In this document: positions 36,200 to 41,063 of the stretch, in pieces
Layout of the letters: every line of letters starts with the position of its first letter
Numbering within the stretch: position 1 is the first letter of the stretch
Assembly: GCA_026709025.1 (NCBI GenBank)
Contig: JAPOTT010000026.1
Coordinates: 7,419-67,002 of the forward strand
Reading direction: 5' to 3'
DNA: 59,584 nucleotides
Source: a bacterium
Lineage (GTDB): Bacteria; Actinomycetota; Acidimicrobiia; Acidimicrobiales; Bin134
Program-made: the position numbers and the translations under genes
The notes under the pieces: generated by a model
Databases searched by the model: none
Seen by the model: only the letters and a program-made list of their open reading frames with translations
What the model was told of the DNA's origin: nothing

Positions 36200-37216
36200 G
36201 TGGAAGCTGATATTGCAATTCCTTTAGCAGTGATCGGAGCCTGCCTGCTGGTGGTGGTAGCCATTGCCTACGCCACCCGCAAACGCCCCGAACCCTCAGA
36301 CATAGCCCCCGAACCCCCAAACGACCTAGCTACCCTATCCAACCCACTTGCCCACTCCGACACTGCTACCCACTCTGACACTGCTACCCCCTCCGACACT
36401 GCTACCACCGCAGCAGTGAGCGCTAGCCGCGCACAGCTCGGTGCCCCTGATGATATCAGTAACGGTGCCGGGCTGGAGTTTGCATGGATGTCCAATGATG
36501 AAAGCAAAAAACCTAATCTTGCTAATACCGCCAGTCCAGAAGCGCTGCATCGTTGGCACATCCGCCACCACAACACGGTGTCAACATGGATAGCCAACCA
36601 CCAAGCGGTACTGGCCGACATGAGCGCCTCTGGGCTGCAAATCCGGTTTGATAAACGCAAAGAGATGATGGCGATACATGAGCAGCTAGCACCCAAGATG
36701 CATGAGGCCATCGCCAACCACCCTGCGCCGGTTATGCGAGCCGAGTTGAGCGCCATGCACGTGGCTGGTGAAGCATCGCTGTTTGCTGTGTTCAAAAGCG
36801 AATACGCTGCGGCCCGTCGCCAACACCTTATCTATGTGCAGTATCGCGATGAGTGGATTGAGCGACTGAACCAATTCTCCAAGCAGCCAGTGGACGAGTT
36901 GCGGGCTGTGATGAACTCGACGGATTTTGAGCTAGAAGAAATCAGAAGTGCCCTAGAAGATGCTTTAACTCAAACCACCACGGCTACCAAAGAGCCAGAG
37001 TTCGCAGCACCTTTGCTGATGCGAGACGAGCATTCTGCAATAACCGCCATCGAAGAACAACCAGATGATCTCTTACGGGCCGCCGTGGGCACTATCCAAG
37101 ACGAGACCCCCGATACAGAAGCCACCATCGCCGAACTAGAGGGAGGCAGAATCAAACGCCTAGCGCGCAGTCTGTCCCCCCGCACAACCAACAAACACCA
37201 CCCTCCCCACAATTAG
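36200..37216 (+). CDS. membrane-anchored protein of unknown function
   Basis: 338 residues, GTG start. One N-terminal helix (IPLAVIGACLLVVVAIAYAT) is followed by an acidic Pro/Thr region with three 18-base repeats (36353-36406) coding HSDTAT. A cytoplasmic, mostly helical domain with many Trp, His and Glu follows (RWHIRHHNTVSTWIANHQAV). The C-terminus is Arg/Lys-rich. I recognise no family. The helix plus basic tail suggests a membrane-bound protein facing the cytoplasm. A hairpin and an 18-base C run follow directly. Confidence 0.65.
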   Translation: MEADIAIPLAVIGACLLVVVAIAYATRKRPEPSDIAPEPPNDLATLSNPLAHSDTATHSDTATPSDTATTAAVSASRAQLGAPDDISNGAGLEFAWMSNDESKKPNLANTASPEALHRWHIRHHNTVSTWIANHQAVLADMSASGLQIRFDKRKEMMAIHEQLAPKMHEAIANHPAPVMRAELSAMHVAGEASLFAVFKSEYAAARRQHLIYVQYRDEWIERLNQFSKQPVDELRAVMNSTDFELEEIRSALEDALTQTTTATKEPEFAAPLLMRDEHSAITAIEEQPDDLLRAAVGTIQDETPDTEATIAELEGGRIKRLARSLSPRTTNKHHPPHN

Positions 37217-37253: not shown

Positions 37254-37417
37254 GAGTCTTACGAGAACTCTTCTCTAACGAGAGTAACGTAGCAGAGCAC
37301 TTACAGTTCTTAGGGCACCGAGGAGTGGAGTTACGGGTGTCTGCGGTCTCCTACAGAAACTAAAAACATATACCTTGATTTGCAACACCTATCTATTATA
37401 TGCTAAGTATCTCGCAC

Positions 37418-38023
37418 ATGAAATCAATCTCATTATTCTCTGTCTTGCTTATGATAATCTTGGGCACATTAACTTCTACCTCACAAGCCTCTACACAAAC
37501 AGATCAAGAAACCGAAGTTCCACCTCCTCCAAAAGACGATAATGTAATTGGTCGTATAGTAACTTCCCCAACAACTCAAGAAGTGATTGAACAACTTTCA
37601 CCTCCTCCTCTATCGAACCAAGAAGTCCAAGACATAATCAATTTACCTCATTCTCTTAGTGACCGAAGCACAAGCGGCACTAATTCTGGTGAGTATAACT
37701 GTTCATCAACAACTTGGACTTATCATGTGTTAGGTGTCTCAGCACTAGGACCATCCTATTATCTAGGCTACAGAAATTGCTATAGCTCAGAATATGTACC
37801 AGTCTACCGATATCACTTTCACTTTTACCCACGCCCCGGCTGGAATCACTTGCACTCTTTTATTCCACCCTCATGCGATAATAGCGAACCTGATTTTTCC
37901 TCTACGCCATACAATTATACAAACTTTGTTAACTCTGTATATACTCAAAGTACTGAGAATGGAATAAATTGGTATAGGACAAGTCGGCTATATCTAACTA
38001 CCTACAGTTGTGCAGTTAAATAA
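37418..38023 (+). CDS. secreted protein of unknown function, AT-rich
   Basis: About 201 residues from ATG 37418; the in-frame ATG at 37400 lies inside the probable -10 box. A signal peptide (MKSISLFSVLLMIILGTLTS, cleavage near residue 25) is followed by an acidic Pro-rich stretch and a C-terminal part rich in Tyr, Ser and His with four cysteines (GEYNCSSTTW, YRNCYSSEY, PPSCDN, YSCAVK), which may form two disulfides. Codon use is AT-rich, unlike neighbours on both sides, which suggests recent transfer. No family recognised. Confidence 0.5.
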   Translation: MKSISLFSVLLMIILGTLTSTSQASTQTDQETEVPPPPKDDNVIGRIVTSPTTQEVIEQLSPPPLSNQEVQDIINLPHSLSDRSTSGTNSGEYNCSSTTWTYHVLGVSALGPSYYLGYRNCYSSEYVPVYRYHFHFYPRPGWNHLHSFIPPSCDNSEPDFSSTPYNYTNFVNSVYTQSTENGINWYRTSRLYLTTYSCAVK

Positions 38024-38318: not shown

Positions 38319-40385
38319 CTATACCAAGTCGGGGTCGCAAATTATCTCTACTAGGGCGGGGCCGGGGTGGGAAAATGCGGCTTCAAGGGCGCTAGACAGC
38401 TCATCGGCGCGGTTCACCTGTTGTCCGAAAGCTCCGCACAGGTTTGCGTAGGCCGCAAAATCGGGATTGTGGAGGCTGGTTTGCCAAACCTCCCAACGCC
38501 CAGCACGTTGCTCTTTGGATATCTTGCCTAGCTGCGAGTTGTTCAAGAGGATGTGGGTGATGTTCATCTGATACTTCACCGCTGTGGTTAGCTCCATGGC
38601 ATACTGCCCAAAACCACCATCGCCACTGATGCTCACGATGGGACGCTCCCTGCCCACAGCGGCCCAAGCACCCATAGCCGCAGGCAAGCTGAACCCGATG
38701 GAGCCGAGATAGCCCGACATCAACACCGTCTGCTGCTTGGCCTCAAAATAACGACCAAAAGAATAGGTGTTGTTGCCCACATCTACAGCAATCACCGCAT
38801 TTGCCGGACATAGCTGGCTCAGCGCATCAAACACCACAGCCGAATTAAGGCCACGCCCCTGATCATCGCCAATGCGTGCAGCCTTCTCGGTGCGCCATAT
38901 CGCCCAACGTTGGGCAACCTCACTGCGGTGATCCTCACACGCCCAACCAATCTCAGAACCATCAGGCCCAGCCCCTGCTGCAACCTCGACTAAGCGTTCA
39001 CGAATGGCCTTAGCGGTAACCCCGATGTGACCCAACACCGGCACATCCACAAAGTGGAAGCGGCCCAGAGCAAAGGGGTCGTAATCTACCTGCACGATGG
39101 GCTTGTAGCTAGCAATGCCCGTGTGATTAGAAAACGAAGCTCCAAACGCCACAATCAAATCACTCTCGTTCATAAACCAACTAGCAATAGGCGTGCCCGA
39201 ACGCCCCAGCACACCACAACCAAGCGGATGGGTGTCGCTGATGAGTCCCTTAGCCTTGAACGTGGTGGCCACCGGCACACCAAGCTGTTCAGCTAATGCC
39301 ACCACCTCGGCCACATCAAACCGTGCCCCAGCACCCAACACAAACAGTGGCCGAACAGCGCTGCCAAGCCGTTCTACCGCAGCATCTAAGGCTTGCGGGG
39401 TAGGAGGCATCTCGGGCCGCACCAACCGCCCCTCAGGGCTGCCCACTGCAGCAGAGGGAGTCACCGGCTGCACCTGCACCTCATCGGGCAAAACCAAAAC
39501 GGCCACGTCACGCTGCAATAAGGCCGTCTTGCAAGCCAGGTTCACCAGTTCAGCGTGATTGGAACCAGCCAATACGGTTTGGCTGTAGGCCGCCACATCA
39601 GCGAAGACACCTTGTAGATCCACATCTTGAAAGGCTCCTCGGCCTCTTACAGCAGAGGGCACCTGCCCGCAAAGAGCCAGCACAGGAGCACGATCTACTT
39701 TGGCATCATATAGCCCTGTCATCAGGTTGGTAGACCCGGGCCCGGCAATGGCAAAACAACCAGCTAGTTCGCCGGTGAGCTTGCCGTAAGCTGCTGCTGC
39801 AAAAGCTGCCGCTCCCTCATGGCGCACCCCATAAAACGCCAACTTGTTGCGCTTTTCAGCCTCTCGCAAAGCATCGGCAAAACCCAAATTGGAATGGCCC
39901 ACCATGCCAAACACAGCCCGCACACCCCAGTTCTCCAATGTTTCAACCAGCACGTCCGATACGGTTCGCACCCGCTCAGGCAGCGGAGGAAGCTGCACAT
40001 ACACCCCGTCGGAGCGAAGCTGTGTGGGATAGCACCCCACAGCATCGCTAAAGCCCTCTGGAGGATTGCCACTAAGGGGGTTGTAATCGTAACCGTGCCA
40101 TGGGCAACGCAGCCAGCCATTTTCGATGGAGCCCTCCCCTAGTGGGCCACCCTGATGAGGGCAGCGATTATCCAAAGCCCCGTACTGGCCGTCCACACAC
40201 GAAATAGCCAAACTTCGACGGCCCACAGTAACGGTACGCACGCGCCCCTCAGCTAACTCCCCGGGCTCCAACACCAGATGCCACACAGCGCCGTTATCTT
40301 CGGCATCTGTGATTTTTGCACCTTCAGAATCTGCGCCAACATTGCCAATGTTGGTTTGTGGAGTGTTGACTTTATCTAAAACCAT
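38319..40385 (-). CDS. fusion of Rieske 2Fe-2S domain with a TPP-dependent (acetolactate synthase/pyruvate oxidase-like) enzyme
   Basis: 688 residues. After a ~30-residue tail comes a Rieske domain (about 31-135) with both ligand pairs: Cys75-Pro-His77 in DNRCPHQGG and Cys94-Pro-Trp-His97 in RCPWHGYD, of the ferredoxin/dioxygenase type. From about residue 140 a full three-domain thiamin-diphosphate enzyme follows: VRHEGAAAFAAAAYGKLTGE with catalytic Glu190, the FAD-fold middle domain (VLGAGARFDVAEVVALAEQL), and the TPP/Mg motif starting GDGGFGQYAMEL and ending LLNN. A reaction on a 2-keto acid with electrons passed to or from the Fe-S cluster is plausible; the substrate is unknown. It faces a peroxiredoxin gene across 48 bases. 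The frame is intact, so the fusion is real. Confidence 0.85.
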   Translation of the reverse strand: MVLDKVNTPQTNIGNVGADSEGAKITDAEDNGAVWHLVLEPGELAEGRVRTVTVGRRSLAISCVDGQYGALDNRCPHQGGPLGEGSIENGWLRCPWHGYDYNPLSGNPPEGFSDAVGCYPTQLRSDGVYVQLPPLPERVRTVSDVLVETLENWGVRAVFGMVGHSNLGFADALREAEKRNKLAFYGVRHEGAAAFAAAAYGKLTGELAGCFAIAGPGSTNLMTGLYDAKVDRAPVLALCGQVPSAVRGRGAFQDVDLQGVFADVAAYSQTVLAGSNHAELVNLACKTALLQRDVAVLVLPDEVQVQPVTPSAAVGSPEGRLVRPEMPPTPQALDAAVERLGSAVRPLFVLGAGARFDVAEVVALAEQLGVPVATTFKAKGLISDTHPLGCGVLGRSGTPIASWFMNESDLIVAFGASFSNHTGIASYKPIVQVDYDPFALGRFHFVDVPVLGHIGVTAKAIRERLVEVAAGAGPDGSEIGWACEDHRSEVAQRWAIWRTEKAARIGDDQGRGLNSAVVFDALSQLCPANAVIAVDVGNNTYSFGRYFEAKQQTVLMSGYLGSIGFSLPAAMGAWAAVGRERPIVSISGDGGFGQYAMELTTAVKYQMNITHILLNNSQLGKISKEQRAGRWEVWQTSLHNPDFAAYANLCGAFGQQVNRADELSSALEAAFSHPGPALVEIICDPDLV

Positions 40386-40433: not shown

Positions 40434-41063
40434 ATGGCTATCCGATTAGGCGATGTCGCCCCCGATTTCACAGCTGACACCACTGAAGGAACCATCTCGT
40501 TTCACGATTGGAAAGGCAGCTCGTGGGCCGTTTTGTTCTCGCACCCCAAAGATTTCACCCCGGTTTGCACCACCGAGTTGGGCTACACGGCCCGTCTCGC
40601 CGAAGACTTTGCCCAACGCAACGTTAAGGTAATCGGCCTATCGTGTGACTCTGTAGAAGACCACCTCGCCTGGTCTCAAGACATTGCAGATACCCAGGGC
40701 ATCCGCCCCAACTTCCCAATGATCGCCGACCCCGACCGCACTGTGGCCAACCTCTACGACATGATCCACCCCAACGCCAGCGACACCATGACAGTGCGCT
40801 CGGTGTTTGTGATTGGCCCCGACAACACCGTGAAGCTCACCATCACCTATCCGGCTAGCACCGGGCGTAACTTTGATGAGGTGCTACGGGTGATCGACTC
40901 ACTACAGCTCACAGCCACCAAGAAGGTTGCAACACCAGTTAACTGGCAACAGGGCGAGGACGTAATCATCGTGCCAGCTCTATCCAACGAAGAGGCCGCC
41001 AAGCTGTTCCCCGGCGGCTGGGATGAACAAAAGCCTTACCTGCGTGTAGTAGCACAGCCGTGA
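40434..41063 (+). CDS. 1-Cys peroxiredoxin (Prx6 type)
   Basis: 209 residues. The peroxidatic Cys45 lies in DFTPVCTTELG. The C-terminal extension (VATPVNWQQGEDVIIVPALS and following) is typical of the Prx6 group, and there is no resolving Cys in the usual C-terminal position. It reduces peroxides, drawing on an external thiol. AAGGAG lies 7 bases before the ATG. It diverges from the Rieske-TPP enzyme and overlaps the following ABC gene by 4 bases (GTGA). Confidence 0.92.
   Translation: MAIRLGDVAPDFTADTTEGTISFHDWKGSSWAVLFSHPKDFTPVCTTELGYTARLAEDFAQRNVKVIGLSCDSVEDHLAWSQDIADTQGIRPNFPMIADPDRTVANLYDMIHPNASDTMTVRSVFVIGPDNTVKLTITYPASTGRNFDEVLRVIDSLQLTATKKVATPVNWQQGEDVIIVPALSNEEAAKLFPGGWDEQKPYLRVVAQP

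Follow-up and report, generated by a model that had tools for sequence, protein, structure and literature searches.

A conserved Rieske-ThDP fusion protein with pyruvate oxidase-like anatomy in bacteria and archaea

RESULTS

A Rieske domain joined to a complete ThDP enzyme

The gene under study lies on the minus strand at positions 38319..40385 of the window, by which we mean the whole stretch of 59,584 nucleotides of acidimicrobial DNA that was analyzed, and forms an open frame of 688 codons. Pfam searches of its product revealed a Rieske domain at residues 35-107, followed at residues 141-688 by an entire ThDP enzyme that belongs to the pyruvate oxidase/acetolactate synthase superfamily. The Rieske [2Fe-2S] domain (PF00355; 40065..40283, minus strand) scored 59.7 bits against a cut-off of 20.3 and contains both ligand pairs, C75-x-H77 and C94-x2-H97 (40095..40163, minus strand). 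The ThDP enzyme follows in three parts, all far over their Pfam cut-offs and all on the minus strand: the N-terminal (PYR) domain (TPP_enzyme_N, PF02776, 114.9 bits; residues 141-257, 39615..39965), with the catalytic Glu190 in the sequence RHEG and the pair F252-Q253; the central domain (TPP_enzyme_M, PF00205, 101.5 bits; residues 334-460, 39006..39386), which is the FAD-binding domain in pyruvate oxidases and holds a predicted FAD site; and the ThDP-binding C-terminal (PP) domain (TPP_enzyme_C, PF02775, 117.5 bits; residues 535-681, 38343..38783). The ThDP motif GDGG...NN spans residues 588-616. The first-pass annotation of this DNA had described a Rieske domain and a TPP-dependent enzyme in one protein, with the ligands, the catalytic Glu and the TPP motif intact, and each of these elements was recovered here. 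The source genome (2.2 Mb in 56 contigs, 95.7% complete) contains one fused copy.

An AlphaFold model of the fusion protein, built from a 32-row homologue alignment, reached a mean pLDDT of 86.3 and a pTM of 0.85, with values below 50 only at residues 1-30. From residue 31 to residue 140, a stretch that takes in the Rieske domain and its junction with the ThDP part, the ten-residue blocks had values of 86-95, so the model gives no hint of a disordered tether between the Rieske and ThDP parts.

Nearest relatives of the two parts

Compared on its own by sequence, the Rieske domain is nearest to the CarAc ferredoxin (PDB 1vck, 39.7 bits, the closest solved sequence) and also matches the AndAb and HcaC ferredoxins. 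The soluble Rieske ferredoxins of ring-hydroxylating oxygenases, such as CarAc and AndAb, are likewise a single small CxH...CxxH domain and are matched over almost their entire length; they differ in being separate carriers, whereas the Rieske domain of the fusion is covalently joined to a ThDP enzyme. By sequence, therefore, this domain resembles the oxygenase ferredoxins, which are one-electron carriers.

The best NCBIfam match of the fusion protein was pyruvate oxidase PRK08611, at 378.1 bits, which is half of the cut-off of 742. The ubiquinone-dependent pyruvate dehydrogenase PRK09124 came second, 79 bits lower (299.1 against a cut-off of 792); lower-scoring matches included spxB (287.8 against 637.85), acolac_lg (273.7 against 538.35) and AlsS (234.7 against 510). 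None of the family cut-offs was reached among the 25 NCBIfam matches listed, and on these profile scores the fusion protein is outside every curated family tested. The best family was again PRK08611 for homologues from an acidimicrobial bacterium, a haloarchaeon and a cyanobacterium (L043, L038 and L113). When the PDB was searched by sequence, PoxB ranked first (224.9 bits), ahead of the Lactobacillus plantarum pyruvate oxidase. The likeness to the latter (1pox) and to PRK08611 is that of the best-scoring protein family; the difference is that the PRK08611 profile has no Rieske domain.

A fold search with the model, whose matches cover residues 137-688 only (the Rieske part being compared by sequence alone), placed PoxB at Z 40.6 and the pyruvate:quinone oxidoreductase PQO at 39.2. 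Hydroxy-ketoacid synthases, acetolactate synthases and lyases fell within the same range (Z 38-41), and because of this tie the fold search could not tell redox ThDP enzymes from non-redox ones. PoxB and the Corynebacterium glutamicum PQO (PDB 3eya and 9ev6) share with the fusion the ThDP enzyme fold over residues 139-688, at ∼27-28% identity. PoxB further shares the catalytic Glu, the FQ pair and a Glu aligned with E625. What sets the fusion apart from both is an extra N-terminal Rieske domain, the absence of the C-terminal lipid tail, and Lys621 in place of Phe465.

A single, widely spread family

The first-pass annotation had proposed a search for the same architecture, and the fusion proved to be widespread. 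At E ≤ 1e-100 it was found in 43 of 247 genomes of the class, and in all 43 the match begins at or before query residue 39 and thus includes the Rieske domain. A phylum-level set of 346 genomes yielded 11 fused matches together with three unfused ones (G374, G394 and G433; 37-38% identity). The unfused proteins differ from the fused family at diagnostic residues (Met at position 621, Thr at position 164), and the one of them that was classified has pyruvate oxidase PRK08611 as its best family, at 529.6 bits. Two genomes (G172 and G368) each have two full-length Rieske-ThDP copies.

Loci were sampled as the best 80 of 578 related stretches in the genome collection, so that distant members are under-sampled. 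Acidimicrobiia predominate in this sample, which includes many metagenome bins; the other hosts are Nocardioides, Acidobacteriota, Myxococcota, Cyanobacteria (Leptothoe and Xenococcus), Woeseia, Planctomycetota, Gemmatimonadota, Balneola, Kiritimatiellales and Poribacteria. The fusion is also present on five plasmid records at 55-59% identity, four from haloarchaea and one from Mycobacteroides abscessus. All five plasmid copies are annotated in the database as "thiamine pyrophosphate-binding protein," with nothing more specific.

A maximum-likelihood tree was built from the ThDP modules of 41 fused and 18 unfused proteins, some of the unfused rows being long branches; in it, the fused modules formed a single clade with 100/100 support. 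This clade spans Acidimicrobiia, other actinobacteria, Acidobacteriota, Cyanobacteria, Myxococcota, Pseudomonadota, Balneolota and haloarchaea, which suggests a single origin of the fusion, within the limits of the sample, followed by wide dispersal. The single clade, the inclusion of the Rieske domain in every class-level match and the complete conservation of the ligands and E190 (see below) argue that the fusion is not a chance join. These observations confirm that the Rieske-ThDP architecture is real and conserved. We found no description of a Rieske-ThDP or a Rieske-Glu_synthase fusion in the literature searched, which comprised open-access papers and not all print; within those papers, the Rieske-ThDP architecture is undescribed.

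Invariant residues and loss of the lipid-binding tail

Residues were counted in an alignment of 94 distinct fused homologues, in which proteins longer than 720 amino acids that reached the C terminus were trimmed to their last 720 residues. The four Rieske ligands (C75, H77, C94 and H97) and the catalytic E190 are kept in 94/94, in bacteria and archaea alike. The first-pass annotation had held that homologues lacking the ligands would speak against its reading; none appeared among the 94. Equally invariant are H164, S165, N166, F252, Q253, R545, K621, K624 and E625 and, in the central domain, G394-R395-S396-G397, G415, F418, H421-T422-G423 and D434. In one protein outside the 94 (L142, 52% identity), K624 is replaced by Arg and R545 by His, and K621 is kept.

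Two differences from PoxB stand out. The first lies in the segment K621-I-S-K-E625 (38511..38525, minus strand): position 621 is Lys in all 94 fused proteins, Phe (Phe465) in Escherichia coli PoxB, and Met, Gln, Leu or Ser in the 18 unfused homologues. Four residues on, position 625 is Glu in all 94 and in PoxB, and Trp in 11 of the 18 unfused homologues. The second is at the C terminus. The lipid-binding tail of PoxB, PQO and CidC is absent from the fused family, with no residues past position 688 in 93/94 fused proteins, compared to 14-49 in the 18 unfused homologues. The tail helix of PoxB responds to phospholipid by placing Phe465 in the active site, which enhances transfer from ThDP to FAD, and the electrons are delivered to membrane ubiquinone (PMC7245740). 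With neither the tail nor Phe465, the fused family is without two parts of the PoxB electron-transfer apparatus. That both were lost where a Rieske domain was gained is consistent with a changed electron exit, and by its anatomy the fusion protein is pyruvate oxidase-like with another way out for electrons. Because the invariant Lys621 replaces Phe465, pyruvate should not be assumed as the substrate. One may speculate that Lys621, near the ThDP/FAD junction, could favor a substrate that carries an additional negative charge.

A second Rieske fusion is the most frequent neighbor

We then asked which genes accompany the fusion. Neighboring genes were taken from a simple open reading frame (ORF) picker, so that some are spurious, and duplicate loci (L009, L010, L012, L013 and L016) were excluded. 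The most frequent neighbor is a protein of ∼536 amino acids in which a Rieske domain of its own is fused to a Glu_synthase (FMN) domain. In 19/81 loci its gene precedes the fusion gene on the same strand at a distance of no more than 900 bp, with overlapping stop and start codons in several; in 15/81 the two genes, on the same strand, are at most 150 bp apart or overlap. The pairing was seen in Acidimicrobiia, Acidobacteriota (L109 and L111), Polyangia (L098), Woeseia (L096) and Kiritimatiellales (L119), and in a haloarchaeal locus (L042) the two genes are 1.4 kb apart. Pfam analysis of 92 nearest-neighbor ORFs, out of 213 near the gene and from 48 of the 81 loci, gave 12 matches each for Glu_synthase, Rieske and FMN_dh (mostly the same proteins), 5 for ABC_tran, 3 for GCV_T, and at most 3 for any other family.

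With the glutamate synthase FMN/[3Fe-4S] domain, this partner shares PF01645 and the Cx5Cx4C cluster motif, which is present in 38 of the 39 Glu_synthase proteins examined (the exception, L092, is a truncated ORF). It differs from glutamate synthase in its added N-terminal Rieske or CDGSH domain, and no glutaminase domain was found in it. In one partner protein (L091:672-2288), whose gene lies 62 bp ahead of Rieske-ThDP, the position of Rieske is taken by a CDGSH [2Fe-2S] domain. The Rieske-Glu_synthase protein is apparently itself an undescribed Fe-S flavoenzyme architecture.

Co-occurrence was also assessed irrespective of adjacency. Counting as class-level orthologues only matches of at least 430 bits (34 genomes; 15 of the 49 genomes with hits had weaker ones and were not counted), both fusions occur in 27 of the 247 genomes, Rieske-ThDP alone in 16, Rieske-Glu_synthase alone in 7 and neither in 197 (Fisher P = 1e-18). 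By genus, the corresponding numbers are 22, 13, 5 and 84 (P = 4e-11); both P values are inflated by the relatedness of the genomes. Among the 346 phylum-level genomes, six have both fusions (five of them shared with the class set), five Rieske-ThDP alone and two Rieske-Glu_synthase alone. In the sixth, which is from another family (G588), the two genes are ∼1 kb apart on one contig, the partner being a 44% match. Only three plasmid records have a full-length Rieske-Glu_synthase gene, and all three are among the five with a full-length Rieske-ThDP gene. In the source genome, the partner (537 amino acids, with the Cx5Cx4C motif) is located at 30617-32218 of contig C16 (G000:C16:30617-32218; L126:1492-3105), a different contig from that of the Rieske-ThDP gene. 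Since the fusion is found without the partner in 16/43 class-level and 5/11 phylum-level genomes at these thresholds, the partner is not obligatory. The link between the two fusions is strong but not obligatory.

Other genes near the fusion

A divergently transcribed peroxiredoxin gene lies at 40434-41063 of the window, with 48 bp between it and the start codon of Rieske-ThDP. Its product has a 1-cysPrx_C domain, an ordinary-looking TPVCTTE site and ordinary family matches. A peroxiredoxin adjoins the fusion in only 4/81 loci (the window, L044, L045 and L078), and it was rejected as a partner. On the other side of the fusion gene, the ORFs at 37400-38023 (207 amino acids) and 36200-37216 (338 amino acids) had no Pfam match. 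An isocitrate lyase gene and a second gene without a Pfam match were considered as general flankers and set aside, as they occur in a few related loci only.

In Woeseia, a DUF5996 protein (L096:6126-6959) is encoded between the Rieske-Glu_synthase and Rieske-ThDP genes. Similar-looking WPxHFD neighbors in L109, L062 and L121 had no Pfam match at E ≤ 0.1. With a Pfam match in L096 alone of the loci looked at, and none in the source genome, DUF5996 was dropped as an obligatory partner; we found no open-access paper on it. Na+/H+ antiporter or K+ transport genes lie near the fusion in five loci from distant lineages, some marine or halophilic (L040, L041, L061, L096 and L119). The salt-stress role that these transporters might suggest is mentioned in passing, as Na_H_Exchanger matched 1 of the 92 nearest-neighbor ORFs.

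In Balneola, the gene for a membrane protein that resembles ferric reductases and bears a Rieske domain at its C terminus (L118:5149-6189) precedes Rieske-ThDP by less than 1 kb; its product is a possible membrane electron partner. All four cyanobacterial loci (L099, L101, L113 and L120) have an FMN_red-type flavoprotein cluster gene within ∼240 bp. Overall, no dedicated reductase recurred among the 92 nearest-neighbor ORFs.

DISCUSSION

In pyruvate oxidases, electrons of the ThDP intermediate pass to FAD and then either to O2 or, in membrane-docked enzymes, to quinone. Given that the ThDP part is nearest to the pyruvate oxidases, a redox role in which electrons leave through the cluster appears to be the best reading of the sequence. 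We give about even weight to the specific proposal that the Rieske-ThDP protein is a soluble 2-oxo-acid oxidoreductase with the electron path ThDP, FAD, Rieske cluster, soluble partner. The enzyme would have originated in the pyruvate oxidase/pyruvate:quinone oxidoreductase branch, with ThDP and probably FAD as cofactors, and its electron exit would have been rebuilt, with an N-terminal Rieske domain of the soluble ferredoxin type in place of the lipid-activated tail that leads PoxB to membrane quinone. Judging from the intact catalytic residues, ThDP activated by Glu190 would attack a 2-oxo acid, and decarboxylation would then form the enamine. Two electrons would pass to FAD in the central domain, Lys621 being observed at the position of the PoxB gate. 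The Rieske cluster would then release them singly to a soluble acceptor of one electron. The acceptor may be the Rieske- or CDGSH-Glu_synthase protein that is encoded next to the fusion in many lineages; the adjacency is observed, and the transfer is our proposal. Four elements of this path are inferred from sequence: the presence of FAD, a 2-oxo acid as substrate, which way the electrons run and what accepts them. Binding of FAD is suggested by residues aligned with PoxB, several of which are also common across the superfamily in general. The first-pass annotation had suggested that the Rieske center serves redox chemistry on a 2-keto acid; the redox part has become the leading reading, and the keto acid is an expectation drawn from the superfamily only. 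The 2-oxoacid:ferredoxin oxidoreductases (PFOR/OFOR) have another architecture, contain [4Fe-4S] clusters and are CoA dependent. They share with the path proposed here the idea of a ThDP intermediate oxidized via an Fe-S cluster (PMC5020499).

One potential alternative, which we consider unlikely, is that the protein is a non-redox ThDP carboligase or decarboxylase resembling acetolactate synthase, in which any FAD is structural and the Rieske domain either senses redox state or oxygen or plays a structural part. Lys621 in place of the gate Phe could equally mean that no redox chemistry takes place at ThDP, or that the substrate is another one. The fold search with the predicted model, which ties it with non-redox ThDP enzymes, and the matches to acetolactate synthase profiles such as acolac_lg would fit this alternative as well. 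However, the pyruvate oxidase profile leads, and its runner-up is itself a pyruvate dehydrogenase. E625 corresponds to the PoxB Glu, whereas most of the unfused homologues have Trp there. In addition, a sensor role leaves unexplained why the main neighbor is a second Fe-S-fused flavoenzyme.

That neighbor raises the possibility of a two-enzyme circuit. Here, the Rieske-ThDP-FAD oxidoreductase would oxidize the 2-oxo acid and pass electrons directly, cluster to cluster, to the Rieske/CDGSH-FMN-[3Fe-4S] enzyme for reductive amination or a related step. Oxidative decarboxylation would thereby be coupled directly to reductive amination, with neither NAD(P)H nor ferredoxin in between, in a bacterial and archaeal module that is undescribed. 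The close same-strand arrangement and its recurrence from Acidimicrobiia to haloarchaea are as this circuit would predict, as are the 27 class-level genomes with both fusions (against 43 and 34 with each) and the plasmids, on which the full-length partner always accompanies the fused ThDP gene. The swap of Rieske for CDGSH, another [2Fe-2S] domain, at the same place also agrees with it. On the other hand, the partner is missing from 16 of the 43 class-level genomes, occurs alone in 7 of 34, and is on a different contig in the source genome. The energetics are a further difficulty, as known glutamate synthase potentials look low for a Rieske donor. Ordinary Rieske ferredoxins have a potential of about -150 mV. 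For glutamate synthase, the published values are about -240 mV for FMN and about -280 mV for the [3Fe-4S] cluster (PMC8097209). A Rieske cluster near -150 mV would not easily drive such centers, which argues against direct feeding of glutamate synthesis unless they are tuned otherwise. We therefore regard the full circuit as a tentative idea and, as formulated, quite an improbable one.

An oxidase that ends on O2 and forms H2O2, with the neighboring peroxiredoxin as protection, seems very unlikely. The divergent peroxiredoxin gene is close by, and one class of pyruvate oxidases makes H2O2 (PMC7245740). Direct oxidation of a flavin needs no fused one-electron cluster, and so ordinary a peroxiredoxin, adjoining the fusion in so few loci, does not bear out the peroxide by-product that the first-pass annotation had read from it. 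Inward flow, in which a reductase would reduce the Rieske cluster and this in turn FAD or an intermediate bound to ThDP, in a reductive or activating role, is highly improbable: oxygenase-type Rieske ferredoxins, the nearest relatives of the domain, do receive electrons from reductases, and the cyanobacterial loci have their FMN_red-type gene, but no dedicated reductase recurs overall, and we know of no member of the pyruvate oxidase branch that runs with electrons inward.

The fusion defines a wide and strongly conserved family that has lost a membrane apparatus and gained a predicted iron-sulfur cluster of its own. The recurring Glu_synthase partner, in which Rieske and CDGSH occupy equivalent positions, suggests a redox circuit in the cytosol, one that present annotation, as "thiamine pyrophosphate-binding protein" and "glutamate synthase-related protein," would hide. 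If the cluster is indeed the exit, it would constitute a third electron route for the pyruvate oxidase class, and the invariant Lys621 would allow the control of ThDP-to-flavin transfer by the Phe gate to be tested directly.
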